From IMG/VR virus record IMGVR_UViG_3300033144_002580, positions 1 through 21,068 of that record: DNA of 21,068 nucleotides; one strand, written 5' to 3'. The notes under the pieces were generated by a model. That model worked only from the letters and a program-made list of their open reading frames with translations, did no database searches and was not told the origin of the DNA. The translations under genes were made by a program, and so were the position numbers. Source of the stretch: a virus. How positions within the stretch are numbered: the first letter of the stretch is position 1; every line of letters starts with the position of its first letter. Positions 78 through 18,573 of this stretch are shown piece after piece.

Positions 78-1408
78 CCACGGCAACACTCGAACTCGGT
101 GAACGCCTCACGCCACGGTGGTATGACCTTCGATACCACCGCGAGCAGGAGATGATCCGATCCGAGTCCGAGCGGTTCACCGTGATTGTCGCGGGGGCGC
201 GGGCTGGCAAGTCCGAGTGCATCAAGCGCTGGGGAACCGAGCGCTTCCTCATGCACACGCGAGAGCATCCCGAGTTCCCGCTTGGCCGCTACCTCTGCGG
301 CGCACCAACTCAAGACCAAGCGACGAACCTCTGGCTTGACGAACCCGAAGGTCTTCTCGCGTTCCTCCCGTCATGGGCGGTCGTGGGTGTCCGGCGAAGC
401 AACCCGCCGCAGATAACGCTCGCGAACGGGACCATCATCCGGATCGTCGGCCTCGACAAGCCGATGCGTTCCGAGGGCGAACCGTGGGACGGCATCATCG
501 TCGACGAGTATTCCGAATGCAAGGCGAACGTCTGGCGCTACATTCGGCCGATGCTCTCGACGCCTGGCCGCGAGGGTTGGGCTGTGCTTCTCTCCCGTCC
601 ACGCGGCGCGGCGCACATGAAGAAGCTCTACGACGAAGCGCCGATGAAGACCGGGTGGCGAGCGCTGCACTGGACGTCCGAGTCGATCCTGCCACCAGAA
701 GAGATCACCGCCGCCAAGGCGGATATGGACGAGCTGGAATACCGATCCGAATACCTCGCCGAGTTCGTGACTTACGCGGGCCGCGCCTATCACGCGTTTG
801 AGCGCGGCGTCCATCTCGTTGACAAGATCGAATACGACCCAAAGCGGGCGCTGGTCTTCTGCTTCGACTTCAACGTCGACCCGGGGACGGCATCCGTCTG
901 GCAGGAGACGGACATGTCGAACTGCCTCGACGCGGTCTACATCCCGCGCAACTCAACGACCGATGCCGTGTGCCGCCGGCTCATCCAGGACTGGGGAGAG
1001 CATCCCGGCAAGGTGTTCATCTACGGCGACGCGACGGGCGGCGCTCGCGGGTCGGCAAAGGTGGCCGGTTCCGACTGGGTGATTATCAAAGAGATGTTGC
1101 GGCCAGTGTTCAAGGGACGAATCCACTTCCGCGTGCCGCTGGCGAACCCAAGACAGCGGGCGAGAATCAACGCGGTCAACCGTCGGTTGCGCGACGCGAA
1201 CGGAAACGTCCACGTGCGGATCGACGGAAGCCGTGCGATGAAGATGGCCGAGGACTTCGAGCAGACGATGTTGCTTGAGGGTGGCAGCGGTGAAATCGAC
1301 AAGAAATCCGACCTGTCGGTTTCTCACCTCGTCGACGGCGTAGGCTACTACTTTTTCAAGGAGTTCCCAGTCCTCGGGAAGCCGAAGGCAAAGAGCATGG
1401 CGTATTGA
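74..1408 (+). CDS. terL: Terminase large subunit (DNA-packaging ATPase/nuclease)
   Basis: This 444-residue protein is the motor that pumps phage DNA into the procapsid and cuts the concatemer. The ATPase domain shows a Walker A P-loop (GARAGKS, residues 41-47), a Walker B (IIVDEY, 141-146, with D144 and catalytic E145) and a likely coupling motif SRPRG (174-178). The C-terminal RNase H-like nuclease shows the expected acidic residues: D265 in FCFDFN, D319 in IYGDATG and D421 in SHLVDGVGY. Length and domain order are normal for the family. The ATG overlaps the previous stop by four bases. The protein docks on the portal encoded at 1879-3460. The identification is firm; the packaging strategy (cos or pac) cannot be read from this sequence. 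Confidence 0.94.
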   Translation: MTTATLELGERLTPRWYDLRYHREQEMIRSESERFTVIVAGARAGKSECIKRWGTERFLMHTREHPEFPLGRYLCGAPTQDQATNLWLDEPEGLLAFLPSWAVVGVRRSNPPQITLANGTIIRIVGLDKPMRSEGEPWDGIIVDEYSECKANVWRYIRPMLSTPGREGWAVLLSRPRGAAHMKKLYDEAPMKTGWRALHWTSESILPPEEITAAKADMDELEYRSEYLAEFVTYAGRAYHAFERGVHLVDKIEYDPKRALVFCFDFNVDPGTASVWQETDMSNCLDAVYIPRNSTTDAVCRRLIQDWGEHPGKVFIYGDATGGARGSAKVAGSDWVIIKEMLRPVFKGRIHFRVPLANPRQRARINAVNRRLRDANGNVHVRIDGSRAMKMAEDFEQTMLLEGGSGEIDKKSDLSVSHLVDGVGYYFFKEFPVLGKPKAKSMAY

Positions 1409-1409
1409 T

Positions 1410-1682
1410 ATGGTCTACAGATACCAACCCGGCGACGTTAACGTCTGGACCCCGATAGAGAAGGCTGACGATTATTTCCTTCAGGTCGGAGACGTCGCTT
1501 CCGTTTCGCACTTCTGCGGCGAACGATACAACCCGCCGATCAAGTTTCGCGTCGTAGAGATGCGCGAAGAGGAACAGGACGGACGAAGTGGAATTATGAT
1601 CTACGGCGTCCAGGATGGACCGGAGTATCAAGACAGTCCGTTGGACACCAGTGACACGGCGCAACCAAGTAAGGCGGAGTGA
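1410..1682 (+). CDS. Small hypothetical protein
   Basis: A 90-residue acidic protein that I do not recognise. It begins one base after the terminase stop. The N-terminal 75 residues look beta-rich (alternating hydrophobic residues, e.g. FRVVEM, GIMIYGV), and the last 15 residues are a polar tail. There is one cysteine and no membrane segment or catalytic motif. The next gene starts two bases after its stop, so it is translated with the packaging genes. Its place between terminase and portal is typical of small accessory packaging genes, but no function can be assigned. Confidence 0.7.
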   Translation: MVYRYQPGDVNVWTPIEKADDYFLQVGDVASVSHFCGERYNPPIKFRVVEMREEEQDGRSGIMIYGVQDGPEYQDSPLDTSDTAQPSKAE

Positions 1683-1683
1683 T

Positions 1684-1869
1684 ATGGAATGGACAGACTC
1701 GTCTTGGGTCATATTTCTTGTCAGCGCGGGGATCGGGTTCGTGGTCGGGTCTTTCTACTGGAAGTGGATGGCGAAGAAGGGGACCGACGTATCGGAACAG
1801 GAAGCAGAGAAGGTGTTGAGGATCTTCGAGCAGAAGCGTCGACAACGAGGAATCAAGGCGGACGAATAG
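1684..1869 (+). CDS. Small single-pass membrane protein
   Basis: A 61-residue protein with one hydrophobic segment at about residues 8-24 (WVIFLVSAGIGFVVGSF), then a positively charged WKWMAKK flank and a charged helical tail rich in K, R and E. The charge pattern predicts N-terminus out and C-terminus in the cytoplasm. The ATG at 1684 was chosen because it follows the previous stop by one base; an upstream in-frame start at 1615 would overlap the previous gene widely. It could be a holin- or spanin-like protein or an unrelated moron. A lone transmembrane helix does not decide, and no lysozyme gene lies nearby. Confidence 0.65.
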   Translation: MEWTDSSWVIFLVSAGIGFVVGSFYWKWMAKKGTDVSEQEAEKVLRIFEQKRRQRGIKADE

Positions 1870-1878
1870 AGTAGGAGT

Positions 1879-2844
1879 ATGCCAGAGCAGACAGCAACAG
1901 CCACTCAGGCGCAACCCGCAGCCATCACCTCGACCGCCGTCGGTGAACCGTCGGCAGCGAACCAAGAGATGGAGACGAAATACTGGCGGAACACCCGGCC
2001 GCTGCGCGGTGGGTCCGACGCGATGCGTGCCCAAGGAACGCGCCTTCTTCCTCCTCGTGCGAGGGAGGAGGACAAGCAATGGGAACGCCGCAGGGCCGCG
2101 TCCGTCCTTGACCCATACTACGACGATGCCGTTGACCAAGCGGCCTCCATGCCGTTCTCTCGGCCTGTCACGATCCGTGGCGAGGTCCCCGAGCAGCTCG
2201 AACCGCTCGAGCAGGACATGGACCGGCGCGGCTCGAATCTGACCGTCCAGGCGAAGGATGTTCTGGACGCCGGATTCGACGACGGACTGACGCACCTCTT
2301 CGTGGACTTCCCGGCGATTGACGTCGAGACGGCGGAAGAGGAACGGCTGCTGCGGGCACGACCAACGATCGTCCACGTCAAGGCGGAGAACATGCTCGGC
2401 GCGGAGTTCGTCACCATGCCGACGGGCGAGGACATGATGGCGCGGTGTCGGATCAAGGACACATTCAACCGGCCGGCCCGCGGCGACGATCCCTACGAAG
2501 AGGAGACGGTCGAGCGCGTTCGCGTCTACCACTCGCCGATGCCGGCGTCGGCAGAGAAGGCCGACGTCCTTACCTTCGAGCGGTTCGCGGCGGAGGAGAT
2601 CCGCTACGACGACTTCATTGAGATGGGCGGGCTACCTGGTCGGGTCATCACGTGGCTCAGGCCGCCGAAGATGAGGTATACCGCTCAAGACGTTCTATAC
2701 GAAACGGATCGCGCGGCTGAAGGCCAAGCCGTTCTTCTTCAAGATTATCGACCTGAACATCCACCACTGGCGGTTCTTGTCCGTCCACGATTCATACGTC
2801 AACCTGATCCAGGTGGCGGGATGGGTGCGGACCGGCATAGATGA
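1879..2844 (+). CDS. Portal protein (DUF4055 type), N-terminal part before frame change
   Basis: The reading frame from ATG 1879 (upstream SD-like taggag) carries the N-terminal half of a DUF4055-type portal. It has a polar leader of about 30 residues, then YWRNTRPLRGG, a segment with the family look (DPYYDDAVDQAASMPFSRPV), and a helical segment leading to GLTHLFVDFPA. From about codon 266 (base 2674) the frame becomes unlike the family and ends at 2844 with a proline/arginine-rich tail. The family continuation is in the +1 frame (2675-3460). Joined, the two parts give about 526 residues, close to the usual length. The portal is the dodecameric ring at the capsid vertex through which terminase pumps DNA. 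A true truncation would be lethal, so a base-calling error or recoding is more likely than decay. Confidence 0.82.
   Translation: MPEQTATATQAQPAAITSTAVGEPSAANQEMETKYWRNTRPLRGGSDAMRAQGTRLLPPRAREEDKQWERRRAASVLDPYYDDAVDQAASMPFSRPVTIRGEVPEQLEPLEQDMDRRGSNLTVQAKDVLDAGFDDGLTHLFVDFPAIDVETAEEERLLRARPTIVHVKAENMLGAEFVTMPTGEDMMARCRIKDTFNRPARGDDPYEEETVERVRVYHSPMPASAEKADVLTFERFAAEEIRYDDFIEMGGLPGRVITWLRPPKMRYTAQDVLYETDRAAEGQAVLLQDYRPEHPPLAVLVRPRFIRQPDPGGGMGADRHR
2668..2681 (+). other. Probable +1 frame-change point within the portal gene
   Basis: Upstream coding is in the frame of 1879 and downstream coding in the next frame (+1). The +1 frame has a TGA at 2672-2674 and is open and family-like from 2675. 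Dropping one base in aagatgaggt restores a continuous protein reading ...RPPKM-GIPLKTFY. The P-site codon ATG cannot re-pair after a +1 slip (it would face TGA), so the classical slow-AGG slippage mechanism fits poorly. A one-base insertion, biological or technical, is the simpler reading. Confidence 0.7.
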
Positions 2845-3460
2845 GGGCGGAGAGACGGACATCACGCTCGGGCACAGCCGGATCGAGAGCCTTCCAGCAG
2901 GCCAGACGATCGAGACGCTTGAGCACAAGGGGATGGCCTACGAGGCGGGCAAAGACCGTCTCGGACGTCTGGAGGCGCGTCAGAAGTTCCTATCCGCTTT
3001 GCCATTCCTCGAGATGCCAGCGGGCGACATCACAGCGACGGGCGACATCCTTCGGGGCGCATCGGCGCAATCGCAACTCCAGATTGCCGTTCGTGGCCTT
3101 GAGAACACCGTGACGGACGCCTTTCGGGATGCCGCGACGTGGCTCAACGTGAACCGGCCGACGTCCGCGACCGAGCCGATCGTCCTTGAGGACGACTTCC
3201 GGGTTGACGTGTTCAGTGATTTCGCTCACGGTGTGTTCTCGGCGCAGGAGACGCAGGCGCAGCAGGGCGACTACGACCGCAGGATCATCACGCACGAGTC
3301 GTATCTGCTCGAGCGAAAGAAGCGCGGCGGCTACTCGGATACGCTGGACGTGGCGACGGAGGTGGTGAAGGCGCGGGCCGAGCAGATGACGCGGATGCAG
3401 GATATGGCCGGCATGGAGGCCGAGGAACCCGAAGAACCGGAGGCAGAGGCGGCAGCGTGA
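2675..3460 (+). CDS. Portal protein (DUF4055 type), C-terminal part after frame change
   Basis: This frame opens right after an in-frame TGA at 2672-2674. It begins GIPLKTFYTKRIARLKAKP, then a LNIHHWRFLS segment and ITLGHSRIESLP...LEHKG, ending in a long helix and an acidic EEPEEPEAEAAA tail. The IPL...FY and LN..H..W elements are what DUF4055 portal proteins show in the second half, in the right order after the N-terminal part at 1879. There is no convincing start codon or SD for separate translation; the first possible start is a TTG at 2777, which would lose the first conserved block. I read it as the remainder of the same portal gene. Its stop overlaps the GTG of the next gene. Confidence 0.82.
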   Translation, partial: GIPLKTFYTKRIARLKAKPFFFKIIDLNIHHWRFLSVHDSYVNLIQVAGWVRTGIDEGGETDITLGHSRIESLPAGQTIETLEHKGMAYEAGKDRLGRLEARQKFLSALPFLEMPAGDITATGDILRGASAQSQLQIAVRGLENTVTDAFRDAATWLNVNRPTSATEPIVLEDDFRVDVFSDFAHGVFSAQETQAQQGDYDRRIITHESYLLERKKRGGYSDTLDVATEVVKARAEQMTRMQDMAGMEAEEPEEPEAEAAA

Positions 3461-3732: not shown

Positions 3733-3911
3733 GTAAGCCGAAGCGAACCTGGATGCGCGGCGCTGTCGTCTGCCACAATCGTGCGACGGACGACTGGCGG
3801 CTTATCCTCGCCGACGGGCGCGAGTTTCTGTTGCCGAAGATGTTCACATTCTCGGCGGAACAGAAGGCCGCGTTTCGGCGGATGCTATTCGGAGCGAAGA
3901 TAGATGCCTGA
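3729..3911 (+). CDS. Very small hypothetical protein
   Basis: A 60-residue basic protein with no recognised family, starting at ATG 3729 overlapped with the previous stop. The middle contains a beta-like stretch (DWRLILADGREFLLP) and the end a short helix (AEQKAAFRRMLFGAK). Its last eight bases, ATGCCTGA, also hold the first codons of a duplicated copy of the head-morphogenesis gene start (see 3892-3942). This suggests that in an ancestor this gene directly overlapped the gene now at 4340. Confidence 0.62.
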   Translation: MSKPKRTWMRGAVVCHNRATDDWRLILADGREFLLPKMFTFSAEQKAAFRRMLFGAKIDA

Positions 3912-3942
3912 GACCCGGACGCTCCCCGACTTCCGAACATTG
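3892..3942 (+). repeat. Direct repeat copy 1: duplicated start region of the head-morphogenesis gene
   Basis: Aligning this segment with 4328-4378 without gaps gives 41 identities in 51 bases by my hand count. It includes exact runs gagcgaagata, atgcctga and tccccgacttccg. The two copies are 436 bases apart and bracket the gene at 3959-4339. Confidence 0.8.
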
Positions 3943-3958: not shown

Positions 3959-4339
3959 ATGATAGTTCTCGACAAACTCGGGTGGCCGGTGGAACGCATC
4001 AAGGGAAGACCTATTGACTACCTAACACGGTGCATCGTCCACGGGCGACGCATCATCTCGCGGAAGACGTGGGATGCACATCGGTTCCTATTCCGCATGG
4101 CCGAACGCACGCGGTCTAAACGTGCCCTTGGCCATGATATTGAATACCCCCTCGATAAACTATTCCAGTGGTGCTACGAGCGGGACTTACGTGGAGCGCA
4201 TTACGTGGATGTAGTTGTTCGCGTGAATGGGAAAGACCAGCGCTTCGAAGCTGATTGGTTGAAGGAAATTTCCAACCAGATGCGGCACGTCCCGGTTGAG
4301 GGATGCTCGCAAGCTCCAGCAGAGTCAGAGCGAAGATAA
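3959..4339 (+). CDS. Hypothetical protein, probable inserted (moron-like) gene
   Basis: A 126-residue basic protein I do not recognise. It begins at ATG 3959 with a good SD (aaagg, about 3946-3950). It is rich in R, H, Y and W (e.g. LTRCIVHGRRIISRKTWDAHRFLFRM, positions 23-48, then FQWCYERDLRGAHYVDVVVRVNG). The histidines and two cysteines made me consider a homing nuclease, but there is no complete HNH, GIY-YIG or LAGLIDADG motif. It sits between two copies of the head-morphogenesis gene start and looks slightly less GC-rich than its neighbours, both signs of insertion. The TAA 4337-4339 abuts the next ATG. Confidence 0.65.
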   Translation: MIVLDKLGWPVERIKGRPIDYLTRCIVHGRRIISRKTWDAHRFLFRMAERTRSKRALGHDIEYPLDKLFQWCYERDLRGAHYVDVVVRVNGKDQRFEADWLKEISNQMRHVPVEGCSQAPAESERR

Positions 4340-4378
4340 ATGCCTGAAACCGCATCCGTCCCCGACTTCCGCACCTTG
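4328..4378 (+). repeat. Direct repeat copy 2: functional start of the head-morphogenesis gene
   Basis: Second copy of the repeat described at 3892-3942. It covers the last codons of the inserted gene and the first 13 codons of the protein starting at 4340. Being joined to the full gene, this is the functional copy. Confidence 0.8.
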
Positions 4379-5614: not shown

Positions 5615-6415
5615 GTGGCGGATCCGAAACCAGAAGAGACGACCCTCGAAGCCGAGGTGACAGAAGACGAGGGGCCGACGGTCGAGTCGGTGCAGGCGGA
5701 TGCGGCGAAGTTTAAGTCCGCGCTGATGAAAGAGCGGAAGGTGGTCGCGAAGCTGCGGAAGGACCTCGACCCCTTCAAGGACCTCGATGCGACGGCGGCC
5801 CGGGAGGCCCTCACGAAGCTCGAGGAGATCGAGGAGGCGGCAGCAGCGGCGGCGGAAAGCGGCGAGGGCGACAAGCCCAACCCGGCGTTCCTGAAGCTCG
5901 AGCAGGACGTCAAGCGGCTGAAGAACGCGGTCGAGGCAGGCGAGAAGACGCTCGCGGCCGAGAAGAAAGAGCGCGACGTCGACCGGAAGCTGTTCAACCT
6001 GAAACAGAAAGAATCGATGGCGACCGATGCGTTGCTGAAGCACGTATCCGATCCGGCCGATGTGAAGATCCTCAAACGGGAACTTCTGGCGCGGATGGTC
6101 GAAGAAGAAGGCGAGACACATAACGGGAGCCCGATCTATCGTGTCCCGGACGATGACGGTGAACCACGGCTGGTCACCAAGTTGGGGGATACAAACCCCG
6201 ACAAGATCCTTGCGGAATACGTCGGCAAGGACATGCGGGCGGAGTTCCCGAAGAACTTCGGCGGCACGAAGGCTGCCGGAGGCGGTTTGACCGGGATCGC
6301 TGGCAAGACCGAAGACGGCGAGTTTGTCGTCAAGCGCGGCGCGACCCCGGCCGAATATCAGCGAGTGCGGGAGGCCGCACAGAAAGTAGGAAAACTTCCG
6401 ACAATAACGGATTAG
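5615..6415 (+). CDS. Scaffold-like capsid assembly protein
   Basis: A 266-residue, highly charged protein with a GTG start at 5615 and SD agaggtg six bases upstream. It has an acidic N-terminus (about residues 1-28), a long helical/coiled-coil core rich in K, E and A (about 30-155) with an alanine run near residue 75, and a glycine-rich linker (FGGTKAAGGGLTGIAG). It ends with a short basic helix (YQRVREAAQKVGK), the sort of tail that binds coat protein in P22-type scaffolds. The assignment rests on composition, length and position right before the coat gene. No capsid maturation protease is visible nearby, which fits the P22 scheme of reusable scaffold. Confidence 0.75.
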   Translation: MADPKPEETTLEAEVTEDEGPTVESVQADAAKFKSALMKERKVVAKLRKDLDPFKDLDATAAREALTKLEEIEEAAAAAAESGEGDKPNPAFLKLEQDVKRLKNAVEAGEKTLAAEKKERDVDRKLFNLKQKESMATDALLKHVSDPADVKILKRELLARMVEEEGETHNGSPIYRVPDDDGEPRLVTKLGDTNPDKILAEYVGKDMRAEFPKNFGGTKAAGGGLTGIAGKTEDGEFVVKRGATPAEYQRVREAAQKVGKLPTITD

Positions 6416-6441
6416 CGGCAACGCAACCAAACGGCAACTTT

Positions 6442-6469
6442 TCGCGGGCCAGAGTGAGTCAGCCCCCGA
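6442..6469 (+). repeat. Leader stem-loop 1
   Basis: Arms tcg-c-gggc (6442-6449) and gccc-c-cga (6462-6469) pair with one C-C mismatch. The loop is CAGAGTGAGTCA (6450-6461). Confidence 0.75.
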
Positions 6470-6473
6470 CTGC

Positions 6474-6497
6474 CCGACTCGGAGTGAGTCAGGTCGG
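6474..6497 (+). repeat. Leader stem-loop 2
   Basis: Arms ccgact (6474-6479) and ggtcgg (6492-6497) pair over six bases, the inner one being a T(U)-G pair. The loop CGGAGTGAGTCA (6480-6491) is the only variant, with G for A at its second position. Confidence 0.72.
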
Positions 6498-6519
6498 ATC
6501 GGCAAGCGGAAAGGCCATC

Positions 6520-6549
6520 GTCGCAGGCCAGAGTGAGTCAGCCAGCGAC
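6520..6549 (+). repeat. Leader stem-loop 3
   Basis: Arms gtcgc-a-ggc (6520-6528) and gcc-a-gcgac (6541-6549) pair with one A-A mismatch. The loop is CAGAGTGAGTCA (6529-6540). Confidence 0.77.
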
Positions 6550-6560
6550 ACCGCCAGATC

Positions 6561-6590
6561 CTGAAGCGCCAGAGTGAGTCAGCGCTTCAG
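6561..6590 (+). repeat. Leader stem-loop 4
   Basis: Arms ctgaagcgc (6561-6569) and gcgcttcag (6582-6590) form nine perfect pairs. The loop is CAGAGTGAGTCA (6570-6581). Confidence 0.8.
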
Positions 6591-6615
6591 CGACGCGACG
6601 GTTGGCCGAACGTGA

Positions 6616-6654
6616 GCAGAGATGCCTTTCACAGCCGCATGAAAGGAACTCTGC
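6616..6654 (+). promoter_or_regulatory. Hairpin burying the coat gene ribosome binding site
   Basis: Outer arms gcagag (6616-6621) and ctctgc (6649-6654), and inner arms cctttc (6625-6630) and gaaagg (6641-6646), make a 12-bp stem with a small internal loop and a 10-base apical loop. The SD aaagga (6642-6647) of the coat gene is in the 3' inner arm, so opening of this hairpin would control coat translation. Confidence 0.6.
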
Positions 6655-6657
6655 ATC

Positions 6658-7848
6658 ATGTCCAACGACAGAGGCTTCTACGACGAGGACTTTTTCGCGC
6701 AAGAAGCGTTAATGTCCCTCTACAACCACCTCGGCCTCGCCAGCCGAATCTTCATGGGCTACGATCGCGAATACAGTAGCCACGAATCGGGCACCGCGAT
6801 CAAGGTTCGCGGCCCGGGCGCGTTCACGGCCGGCAACGCCCCGACGGCGACCGTGAGTGCCTCGGACATCCTGACCCGTTCCGTCACCGTCACCCTCGAC
6901 CAGTGGAAAGACGTCGTCTTCGGTCTCACCGACAAGGAGATGGCGCTCTCGAAAGAAGAGATCCTTCGGGACCACATCGACCCGGCAGCGGCGGCCATCG
7001 CCGAGGTGATCGACGACTACATCCAGACGTTCTACTACAAGATCCCGTGGGCGTTCGCTCAGGCCGGCGCGACGGCGGCCGTGACGGACATCGTCGAGGC
7101 CAGGCGACTTCTCCAGGTCTCGAAGTGCCCGCTCAAGGACGTCGCCAACATGCACTTCATGTTGACCACGACCCACGAGAAGGACCTCCTCAACCTCGCC
7201 GCGTTCACCCAGTATCAGGGCGGCGACGGGACGGCGGTCAACTCGCAGATCAGCGGCAACCTCGGCATGCGCTACGGCTTCAACTTCTGGGCCAACCAGA
7301 ACGTGACGAGCCACACCGCGAGTTCCACCTCGGACGTCGCGGGTGCGATCGACAGCGGGAACGGCGGATACGACAAGGGCGAGACCACGATGAATATCGA
7401 CGCCCTCGCTTCCGCCGACCTCCTGAAGAAGGGCGACACCTTCTCCGTCGCCGGGAACACGCAGCGTTACGCGCTGACGGCCGACGTGCAGTTGGCGTCG
7501 AACCAGGGTGCCTGCACGTTCACGCCGGCACTCGTGGCCGACGCGGCGGAAGACGCGGTCGTGACCTTCCACACCAAGACCGGCGACGAGTTCCCGTCCG
7601 GCAACTTCTCCCTCGGCTTCCACCGCAACTGGTATGCGTTGGCCTTCGGCAGACTGCCGGAGACGACCATCAGCGGTCTCGGCGCACGGGTCAGCACCGT
7701 GAGCGACCCGATCACCGGGCTCTCGCTCCGGGTGACCATGTGGTACGACGGGAACCTCGCCAAGACGATGGTGCGTGTCGACGCGCTCTACGGCGGAAAC
7801 GTTCTCGACGGAAACATGGCGGTCCGGTTCCACGAGGACGTGACGTAA
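6658..7848 (+). CDS. Major capsid (coat) protein, P22 coat-like
   Basis: A 396-residue protein, the expected size of a P22 gp5-type coat. It has an HK97-fold layout: an N-terminal arm (residues 1-40), a beta-rich region with TVTLDQWKDVVFGLTDKEMA (about 77-96), and a long spine helix (IDPAAAAIAEVIDDYIQTFYYKIP, 107-130). An inserted beta domain follows around residues 237-305 (LLKKGDTFSVAG...), and a beta C-terminus (SLRVTMWYDGNLAKTMVRVDALYGG). The GD.F..AG element is typical of the inserted domain of P22-like coats. It assembles on the scaffold at 5615 into the procapsid. The start at ATG 6658 follows an SD that is inside a hairpin. Expression is probably controlled by the unusual leader 6442-6654. 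Confidence 0.88.
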   Translation: MSNDRGFYDEDFFAQEALMSLYNHLGLASRIFMGYDREYSSHESGTAIKVRGPGAFTAGNAPTATVSASDILTRSVTVTLDQWKDVVFGLTDKEMALSKEEILRDHIDPAAAAIAEVIDDYIQTFYYKIPWAFAQAGATAAVTDIVEARRLLQVSKCPLKDVANMHFMLTTTHEKDLLNLAAFTQYQGGDGTAVNSQISGNLGMRYGFNFWANQNVTSHTASSTSDVAGAIDSGNGGYDKGETTMNIDALASADLLKKGDTFSVAGNTQRYALTADVQLASNQGACTFTPALVADAAEDAVVTFHTKTGDEFPSGNFSLGFHRNWYALAFGRLPETTISGLGARVSTVSDPITGLSLRVTMWYDGNLAKTMVRVDALYGGNVLDGNMAVRFHEDVT

Positions 7849-7870: not shown

Positions 7871-7901
7871 GGTGTCCCTGGTTTTCGGTGCCGGGGACAC
7901 C
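7871..7901 (+). terminator. Strong hairpin after the coat gene (attenuator or processing site)
   Basis: Arms ggtgtccctgg (7871-7881) and ccggggacacc (7891-7901) form 11 pairs with one G-T(U), around a nine-base loop. It lies 22 bases after the coat stop and is followed by tatttt, a weak T-run, and then the SD of the next gene. It could be a leaky terminator that lowers expression after the coat gene, or a 3'-end protector of coat mRNA. Confidence 0.5.
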
Positions 7902-18178: not shown

Positions 18179-18539
18179 CGCGGCGAACGAGGCTGTCCTG
18201 AACCCGGGCCGGTATCGGCATCCCCGATGCTTCCGGCTGGTGACGGATCTGTTCGCCAAGTGTGGGGTCACGCTGCCGGAGCTGATCGATGGCATCGACG
18301 ATGAGGACACGTTCATCCGGAACCGGGAACGGTTCGCTGGCAGGTTCGGGCTGGCCAAGCTGCCCTACGAACCAGGCGACCTCATTGTCTTTAGGCGGAA
18401 GGGTTTCGCCTGCCATTTCGGGATGATTCTCAACGACAGGCTCTCGATCCACGCAGGCAGGGCCATACGGGTCGCTGTGGTCCGCACACGGCGACTTCTC
18501 CGAGGATTCGACGCTGAGGTCATGCGATGCAAAGCCTGA
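18114..18539 (+). CDS. NlpC/P60 cysteine peptidase, lambda gpK-like tail-tip protein
   Basis: From GTG 18114 (SD gaggagg, about nine bases upstream) the product is 141 residues. Likely catalytic residues are C39 in HPRCFRLVTDLFAKCGVTLP, H101 in CHFGMIL, and H113 in LSIHAG as the third polar residue. The YEPGDLIVF strand before the histidine is also typical. NlpC/P60 domains cleave peptidoglycan peptides. In phage tail tips they help assemble the tip or open the cell wall during DNA entry. An ATG at 18096 in the same frame is an alternative start. The stop TGA 18537-18539 lies in the first unit of a 27-bp tandem duplication. Confidence 0.82.
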   Translation: MSNDSTHSEPGSLPGFRAKLLDAANEAVLNPGRYRHPRCFRLVTDLFAKCGVTLPELIDGIDDEDTFIRNRERFAGRFGLAKLPYEPGDLIVFRRKGFACHFGMILNDRLSIHAGRAIRVAVVRTRRLLRGFDAEVMRCKA

Positions 18540-18573
18540 CAGGAACTCATGCGATGCAAAGCCTGACAGGAAC
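18520..18573 (+). repeat. Perfect 27-bp tandem duplication at the gpK/gpJ junction
   Basis: Units 18520-18546 and 18547-18573 are identical. Each contains atgcgatgcaaagcctga, holding both the stop of the gpK-like gene and the start of the gpJ-like gene. Because 27 is a multiple of three, the gpJ frame stays open through both units. This gives alternative ATG starts (18527 and 18554) and a possible nine-residue N-terminal repeat, MQSLTGT. Confidence 0.92.

Follow-up and report, generated by a model that had tools for sequence, protein, structure and literature searches.

A four-hairpin array between the scaffold and coat genes

Why would a virus place four tandem hairpins, all capped by the same loop, ahead of its coat gene? 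The array in question lies at 6442-6590 on the + strand of a 21,068-base virus record, the whole of which we refer to as the window. The head genes of the window are arranged in the order terminase, portal, head morphogenesis, scaffold-like and P22-type coat. The gene preceding the array (5615..6415, + strand, 266 aa) has no match in Pfam or PHROG, phrog_206 included, and probably encodes the capsid scaffold; its product weakly resembles (26%) the scaffold encoded by contig G025 (locus L350), a carrier of the element described below. The gene following the array (6658..7848, + strand, 396 aa) encodes a coat protein of the P22 family (PF11651/phrog_283), which is at most 37% identical to the related coats of annotated phages and forms a long unplaced branch in the tree. 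A separate hairpin with a predicted folding energy of -21.9 kcal/mol is located 5' of the coat gene (6611..6660, + strand), where it buries both the coat Shine-Dalgarno sequence (AAAGGA, 6642-6647; unpaired probability ~0) and the start codon. No copy of the hairpin element was found in the window's own scaffold leader.

The 12-base loop, C(A/G)GAGTGAGTCA, occurs at 6450-6461, 6480-6491, 6529-6540 and 6570-6581, so that all four copies are found where a first-pass annotation of this DNA had placed them, between the scaffold and coat genes. Hairpin 1 (6442..6469, + strand) has the structure TCGCGGGC - CAGAGTGAGTCA - GCCCCCGA, with seven of eight positions paired and an apical GA-GUGAG-UC; hairpin 2 (6474..6497, + strand) is CCGACT - CGGAGTGAGTCA - GGTCGG, with six pairs including one G-U; hairpin 3 (6520..6549, + strand) is GTCGCAGGC - CAGAGTGAGTCA - GCCAGCGAC, with eight of nine positions paired; and hairpin 4 (6561..6590, + strand) is CTGAAGCGC - CAGAGTGAGTCA - GCGCTTCAG, in which all nine positions pair. 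The annotation had counted 9, 8, 7 and 6 bp, which is correct as a count, but its description of the loops as exactly closed does not hold, given one C-C mismatch in hairpin 1 and one A-A mismatch in hairpin 3. Its further statement that the stems share no sequence is true of copies 2 and 4, which are unrelated, but not of copies 1 and 3, which share 90% identity over their 29-nt units.

Each left arm of the array has its own right arm as the best or equal-best partner, and the observed arm pairing was matched by none of 200,000 random arm draws from the same region. In the four-copy alignment 86% of the cells are paired, versus 56% in shuffles and 25-39% when the arms were slid. The four hairpins are real, far beyond chance, and the early view that the region is a folded nucleic acid is borne out by this own-arm pairing as well as by relatives that show the same design with compensatory stem changes (see below). 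The copies are spaced 30, 49 and 41 nt apart, which rules out a protein repeat. An intrinsic terminator, with its GC-rich hairpin and downstream T run, was also rejected, as 6416-6657 contains no terminator-like site.

Although the 12-base loop is constant among the four copies, as had been claimed, it is not predicted to be open. Two extra pairs (GA/UC) are predicted within it in hairpins 1, 3 and 4, which would consist of the stem, a CA/A internal loop, the GA/UC pairs and a GUGAG pentaloop, while for hairpin 2 a rival fold, GACUC/GAGUC, is predicted in the full leader. Rather than a 12-base open loop, it is probably the apical pentaloop with its short closing helix that is conserved.

We also observed three other features in the window. 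The coat message may have a 3' end of its own, given a strong terminator-like hairpin (7871-7901; 12 pairs, TATTTT tail) immediately downstream of the coat gene. A perfect 27-bp tandem duplication (18520-18573) is found at the junction ahead of the ORF at 18527, and two 54-nt segments (3889-3942 and 4325-4378), 80% identical to each other, are located at the starts of successive ORFs.

Searches for the exact array

An exact-loop tandem search of IMG/VR returned two matches, which is about the chance level, and neither is comparable to the window array, one being an array of degenerate repeats next to a TnpB-like ORF and the other AT-rich. The five matches of a single 16-mer search are all coding coincidences, the 69 matches of a tandem search of GTDB are all repeats without the hairpin design, and a relaxed three-copy core search gave mostly coding repeats and nothing comparable. 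The annotation had suggested a covariance model of the four hairpins as a check; such a model (R1), built from the four window copies, matched the window only, with no match in ten GTDB genomes, among the sequences scored. Comparison of the leader DNA with phages and plasmids yielded short chance matches only. The loop had been said to match no known element, and accordingly neither the window nor the carrier leaders matched any of 4227 Rfam families at the gathering threshold; a search of the open-access literature likewise found nothing on such an element. Judged from these IMG/VR and GTDB searches, the exact array appears to be private to the window, and they brought up no relative with its 12-base loop, so that homologous leaders keeping this loop were not at hand for comparison of their stems. 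As a separate observation, the IMG/VR contig L005 carries at 730-3025, beside a TnpB-like ORF, numerous degenerate copies of the 10-mer GAGYGARYCA at intervals of about 35 nt, a CRISPR-like spacing.

Hairpins with a GNGAY pentaloop in the leaders of related phages

A coat scan with exact peptides gave no matches. A second profile, built from closer coat relatives, added 80 loci, and their coat leaders revealed a class of hairpins. Leaders of phages with related coats contain sets of one to four hairpins whose stems are unrelated and whose pentaloop is constant (G-N-G-A-Y), located before the coat gene or, more often, directly 5' of the scaffold ribosome-binding site. For instance, the coat leader of locus L302 contains GAGCC-GGGAC-GGCTC, GATCGGTC-GGGAT-GACCGATC and TTGCC-GGGAT-GGCAA, and that of L329 contains four GTGAT/GCGAT hairpins. 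Some members have a bulge below a short upper stem (L350, GCGAG-C-AGC-GTGAC-GCT-CTCGC; also L053, L382 and L409). About 60% of the relatives have no GNGAY hairpin in either leader. Gene starts in the uncultured contigs are our own calls, and the folds are predictions. A prophage-like locus in a Pseudomonadota genome (L423, position 1413) has the coat-leader hairpin CGGCC-GGGAT-GGCCG, so the element is also present in a bacterial genome.

The element was encountered again in loci fetched after the class had been named (L380, L381, L390 and L397). When hairpins were selected by loop sequence alone, with stem thresholds (at least four or at least five pairs) set by hand, 8 of the 13 GGGAY 5-mers in the leaders of all newly fetched loci sat on stems of at least four pairs and control 5-mers gave 0; in all leaders the figure was 18 of 32, versus 0-8% for control 5-mers. 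When 75 distinct coat leaders were folded without preselection, 26 of the 83 pentaloop hairpins had the loop GNGAN (22 excluding the window's four), although GNGAN 5-mers make up 2.5% of leader sequence. Since GNAAN hairpins numbered just two in the same leaders, there is no general preference for GNRA-like loops. Across 112 distinct loci, 28% of the GGGAY 5-mers in coat leaders were capped, i.e., closed by at least five pairs, as were 26% of those in scaffold leaders, which were still unexamined when the class was named; the corresponding values are 2% elsewhere on the + strand, 1% on the minus strand, and 0-2% for control 5-mers within the leaders.

Covariation and position of the GNGAY hairpins

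An alignment of 20 class hairpins shows double changes at all six pairs, which supports rather than proves covariation because these hairpins were partly chosen by their pairing. Individual comparisons are clearer in kind: loci L360 and L412 are nearly identical apart from the third stem, where GAGGG/CCCTC is replaced by the compensatory GAAGG/CCTTC, and Pseudomonas phages Ab18 and PaMx11 have CCCATG/CATGGG and CCCGTG/CACGGG, respectively, as the arms that enclose the same GAGAT loop. Both L360 and L412 carry four tandem GGGAY hairpins, 26-27 nt apart, before the scaffold start, and these arrays are the closest architectural parallel to the window array.

Among the 48 hairpins that were placed relative to a scaffold start, 20 cover the start codon or end within 20 nt of it, so that the 3' arm adjoins or overlaps the Shine-Dalgarno sequence. 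The scaffold start codon lies in the hairpin loop in L380 and within the hairpin in G019 (the L306 contig), and in G020 (the L307 contig) the scaffold Shine-Dalgarno sequence is in the 3' arm of an extended hairpin. Loop subtypes in the scaffold and coat leaders agree within a phage, being GGGAY in L306, L307 and L380 and GTGAY in L350 and Bordetella phage CN2. Beside their GGGAT hairpins, the scaffold leaders of L380 and L397 also have a long hairpin with a constant loop CGGGT, about 25 nt 5' of the start.

Does the window array belong to the GNGAY class?

Like the class, the window array consists of + strand hairpins between scaffold-like and coat genes, with stems that vary among copies while pairing is kept. 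Its pentaloop GUGAG fits GNGAN, with G rather than C/T as the fifth base and with the GA/UC closure above an internal loop. We regard membership of the same functional class as quite probable, and as probable rather than certain because a model of the GGGAY class (R2) gave no match at the window array. The window scaffold's lack of a phrog_206 match and the absence of a copy from its own leader also speak against membership; the portal, head morphogenesis and scaffold genes that the window shares with the L350 contig speak for it.

Alternatively, the array may have been invented independently, as a private repeat whose resemblance to the GNGAY hairpins is one of position alone; this would be compatible with any mechanism. 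The different loop with its internal loop, the failure of R2 and the long branch of the window coat are all consistent with such an origin, and no intermediate loops were found. On the other hand, all four window copies fold locally to GTGAG, whereas an arbitrary loop would fit GNGAN by chance in about 2.5% of cases (the 5-mer frequency); the array occupies the same gene junction as the class, and a bulge beneath a short upper stem is seen in some relatives (L350, L053, L382 and L409). We therefore consider independent invention unlikely, while giving it more weight than any of the other alternatives below.

The element follows the scaffold family

Cultured carriers, found via the scaffold, are Ab18, PaMx11 and CN2, with the element in both scaffold and coat leaders, and Bradyrhizobium phage BDU-MI-1, with the element in the scaffold leader. 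The coats of Ab18 and CN2 belong to phrog_212, in contrast to the phrog_283 coat of the window, and by BLAST the Ab18 coat is unrelated to the window coat. The scaffolds of Ab18, CN2, L360, L380 and L326 belong to phrog_206. Because phages with unrelated coats but the same scaffold family carry the element, it is tied more to the scaffold than to the coat. The first-pass annotation was hence right to link the hairpins to capsid genes, as the design recurs before scaffold and coat genes, but its emphasis on the coat calls for revision, given the carriers that combine a phrog_212 coat with a phrog_206 scaffold. Since the element tracks the scaffold family, the scaffold protein is the best candidate ligand, and on this association most likely the one.

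We found no clear GNGAY copy in two other phrog_206 phages, Xp15 and CcrRogue, and no clear GNGAY hairpins at the scaffold/coat junctions of Vibrio phage KF4, Nanhaivirus, P22, Xp15, JG012, CcrRogue and MW202657. The coat is the only gene detectably common to the window and contigs G018-G021, G023 and G024, and the L350 contig (G025) has the portal, head morphogenesis and scaffold genes in common with it.

Other leader structures were observed in the course of this survey. The Nanhaivirus-like loci L036, L037, L038, L039, L041 and L044 share a different, single covarying coat-leader hairpin, GCGCGGT...ACCGCGC, some 75 to 25 nt upstream of the coat start, with folding z-scores of -2.4 to -4.3. 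The scaffold leaders of L008, L039 and L041 contain near-identical palindromic repeats, TATAAGCGACTTATA, which look more like DNA-binding sites. Upstream of 857 in L026, a long-range inverted repeat, TTGACCGCTCCTT...AAGGAGCGGTCAA, buries the coat Shine-Dalgarno sequence, and the 258-nt coat leader of Caulobacter phage CcrRogue (L434, 1990-2250) contains the repeat CACGAAACCCTGGTTTCGTG and has a very stable predicted fold.

A putative translational operator of the capsid genes

We propose, with a probability of roughly 0.55, that the array is a multi-site translational operator by which a loop-recognising protein, most likely the scaffold, would control the capsid genes. The array would act as a set of RNA hairpins in the coat-gene 5' leader, in a region where the head genes are co-directional. 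The protein would recognise the constant apical loop (GUGAG in the window, GNGAY in the relatives), with the stem needing to be double-stranded but free in sequence, and once bound would block or time capsid-gene initiation, so that scaffold and coat stay proportionate to assembly. In the relatives the proximal hairpin adjoins or covers the scaffold ribosome-binding site and sometimes the start codon, where bound protein could act directly. In the window the array is located upstream of the coat gene, beside the separate hairpin that is already predicted to bury the coat Shine-Dalgarno sequence, and it is less evident than in the relatives how bound protein would block the ribosome directly, as the array ends 68 nt 5' of the coat start. 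With the scaffold protein as the most likely ligand, control would be autogenous, through feedback from unassembled scaffold, and the several hairpin copies might allow cooperative or graded binding. More tentatively, and at somewhat less than even odds, the hairpins may represent a widespread operator family of dsDNA phages, in which scaffolds of phrog_206 and its kin bind tandem GNGAN hairpins, shut down their own translation and tune that of the coat; this reading suggests that the window array is a four-copy variant with a loop of its own, and that loop and protein co-evolve.

Three other roles were weighed against translational control. Tandem 5' hairpins could shield capsid messages or set processing sites without any dedicated ligand. 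Tandem stems before highly expressed genes fit such protection, and the leaders of the window's coat family are often strongly folded; yet protection needs no specific loop, which is at odds with the 26 GNGAN against two GNAAN hairpins, and the tight placement at the scaffold ribosome-binding site also argues against it, leaving a role in mRNA stability or processing improbable. Less probable again is control of the capsid genes by a host RNA-binding protein of the CsrA/RsmA type, which binds GGA loops over ribosome-binding sites. GGGAY, the commonest loop, does contain GGA and lies at or beside the Shine-Dalgarno sequence, and this subtype thereby resembles CsrA/RsmA hairpins; however, the GTGAY, GCGAY and GAGAT loops lack GGA, as do three of the four window loops (copy 2 alone has it). 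Moreover, Pseudomonas aeruginosa, the host of Ab18 and PaMx11, has RsmA, and these phages nevertheless use GTGAY and GAGAT, and the loop subtype agrees within a phage while following no single host consensus. Finally, a DNA-level function, with the repeats as protein-binding or cruciform sites in dsDNA for promoter control, packaging or recombination, seems very unlikely: an inverted repeat by itself cannot tell RNA from DNA, and intergenic repeats that serve as repressor-binding sites in the DNA are known from phages, but here pairing is kept while stem sequence is free, G-U pairs are used, the GGGAY hairpins favour one orientation (26-28% in + strand leaders versus 1% on the minus strand) and their positions track ribosome-binding sites, from which we infer action at the RNA level.

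Among known systems, the proposed translational operator resembles the coat operators of RNA phages (MS2, PP7 and Qbeta), which are likewise short hairpins with a specific apical loop, located at a ribosome-binding site and linked to capsid protein genes; they are often bulged on the 5' side, two or three pairs beneath the loop, and their stem sequence is largely free. In the MS2 replicase operator the start codon is inside the hairpin, as is the scaffold start codon in L306 and L380. The likeness is one of design and implies no relationship. The present carriers are dsDNA phages with tandem sets of up to four hairpins, which have a GNGAY/GUGAG pentaloop and precede scaffold and coat genes; the window coat is P22-like (PF11651/phrog_283), so a levivirus-type coat does not fit as the ligand. 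The T4 autogenous operators (gene 43 hairpin, regA, gene 32) are leader RNA structures at which binding of a phage protein limits translation, but they concern other genes and loops, and tandem copies that combine a constant loop with variable stems are absent from them. The P22 scaffolding protein is reportedly under post-transcriptional autogenous control (King, Casjens and colleagues), which resembles our proposal in coupling scaffold synthesis to assembly, in the scaffold-then-coat gene order and in the related coat family. In P22 itself the portal and scaffold genes are only 13 nt apart and the coat gene follows without a gap, which leaves no room at these junctions, so that P22 lacks the element there.

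To our knowledge, the control of the scaffold-to-coat ratio in tailed phages has lacked a molecular explanation ever since P22 was described as using autogenous control. The hairpin sets before capsid genes point to an undescribed RNA switch that balances the capsid proteins. As a concrete RNA element in cultured, tractable phages (Ab18, PaMx11, CN2 and BDU-MI-1), they make the ratio question directly testable, and their tie to one scaffold family names a candidate binding protein. If the proposal is correct, an MS2-like operator logic would operate in dsDNA phages, and the hairpins with their proteins would provide new orthogonal RNA-protein tagging pairs.
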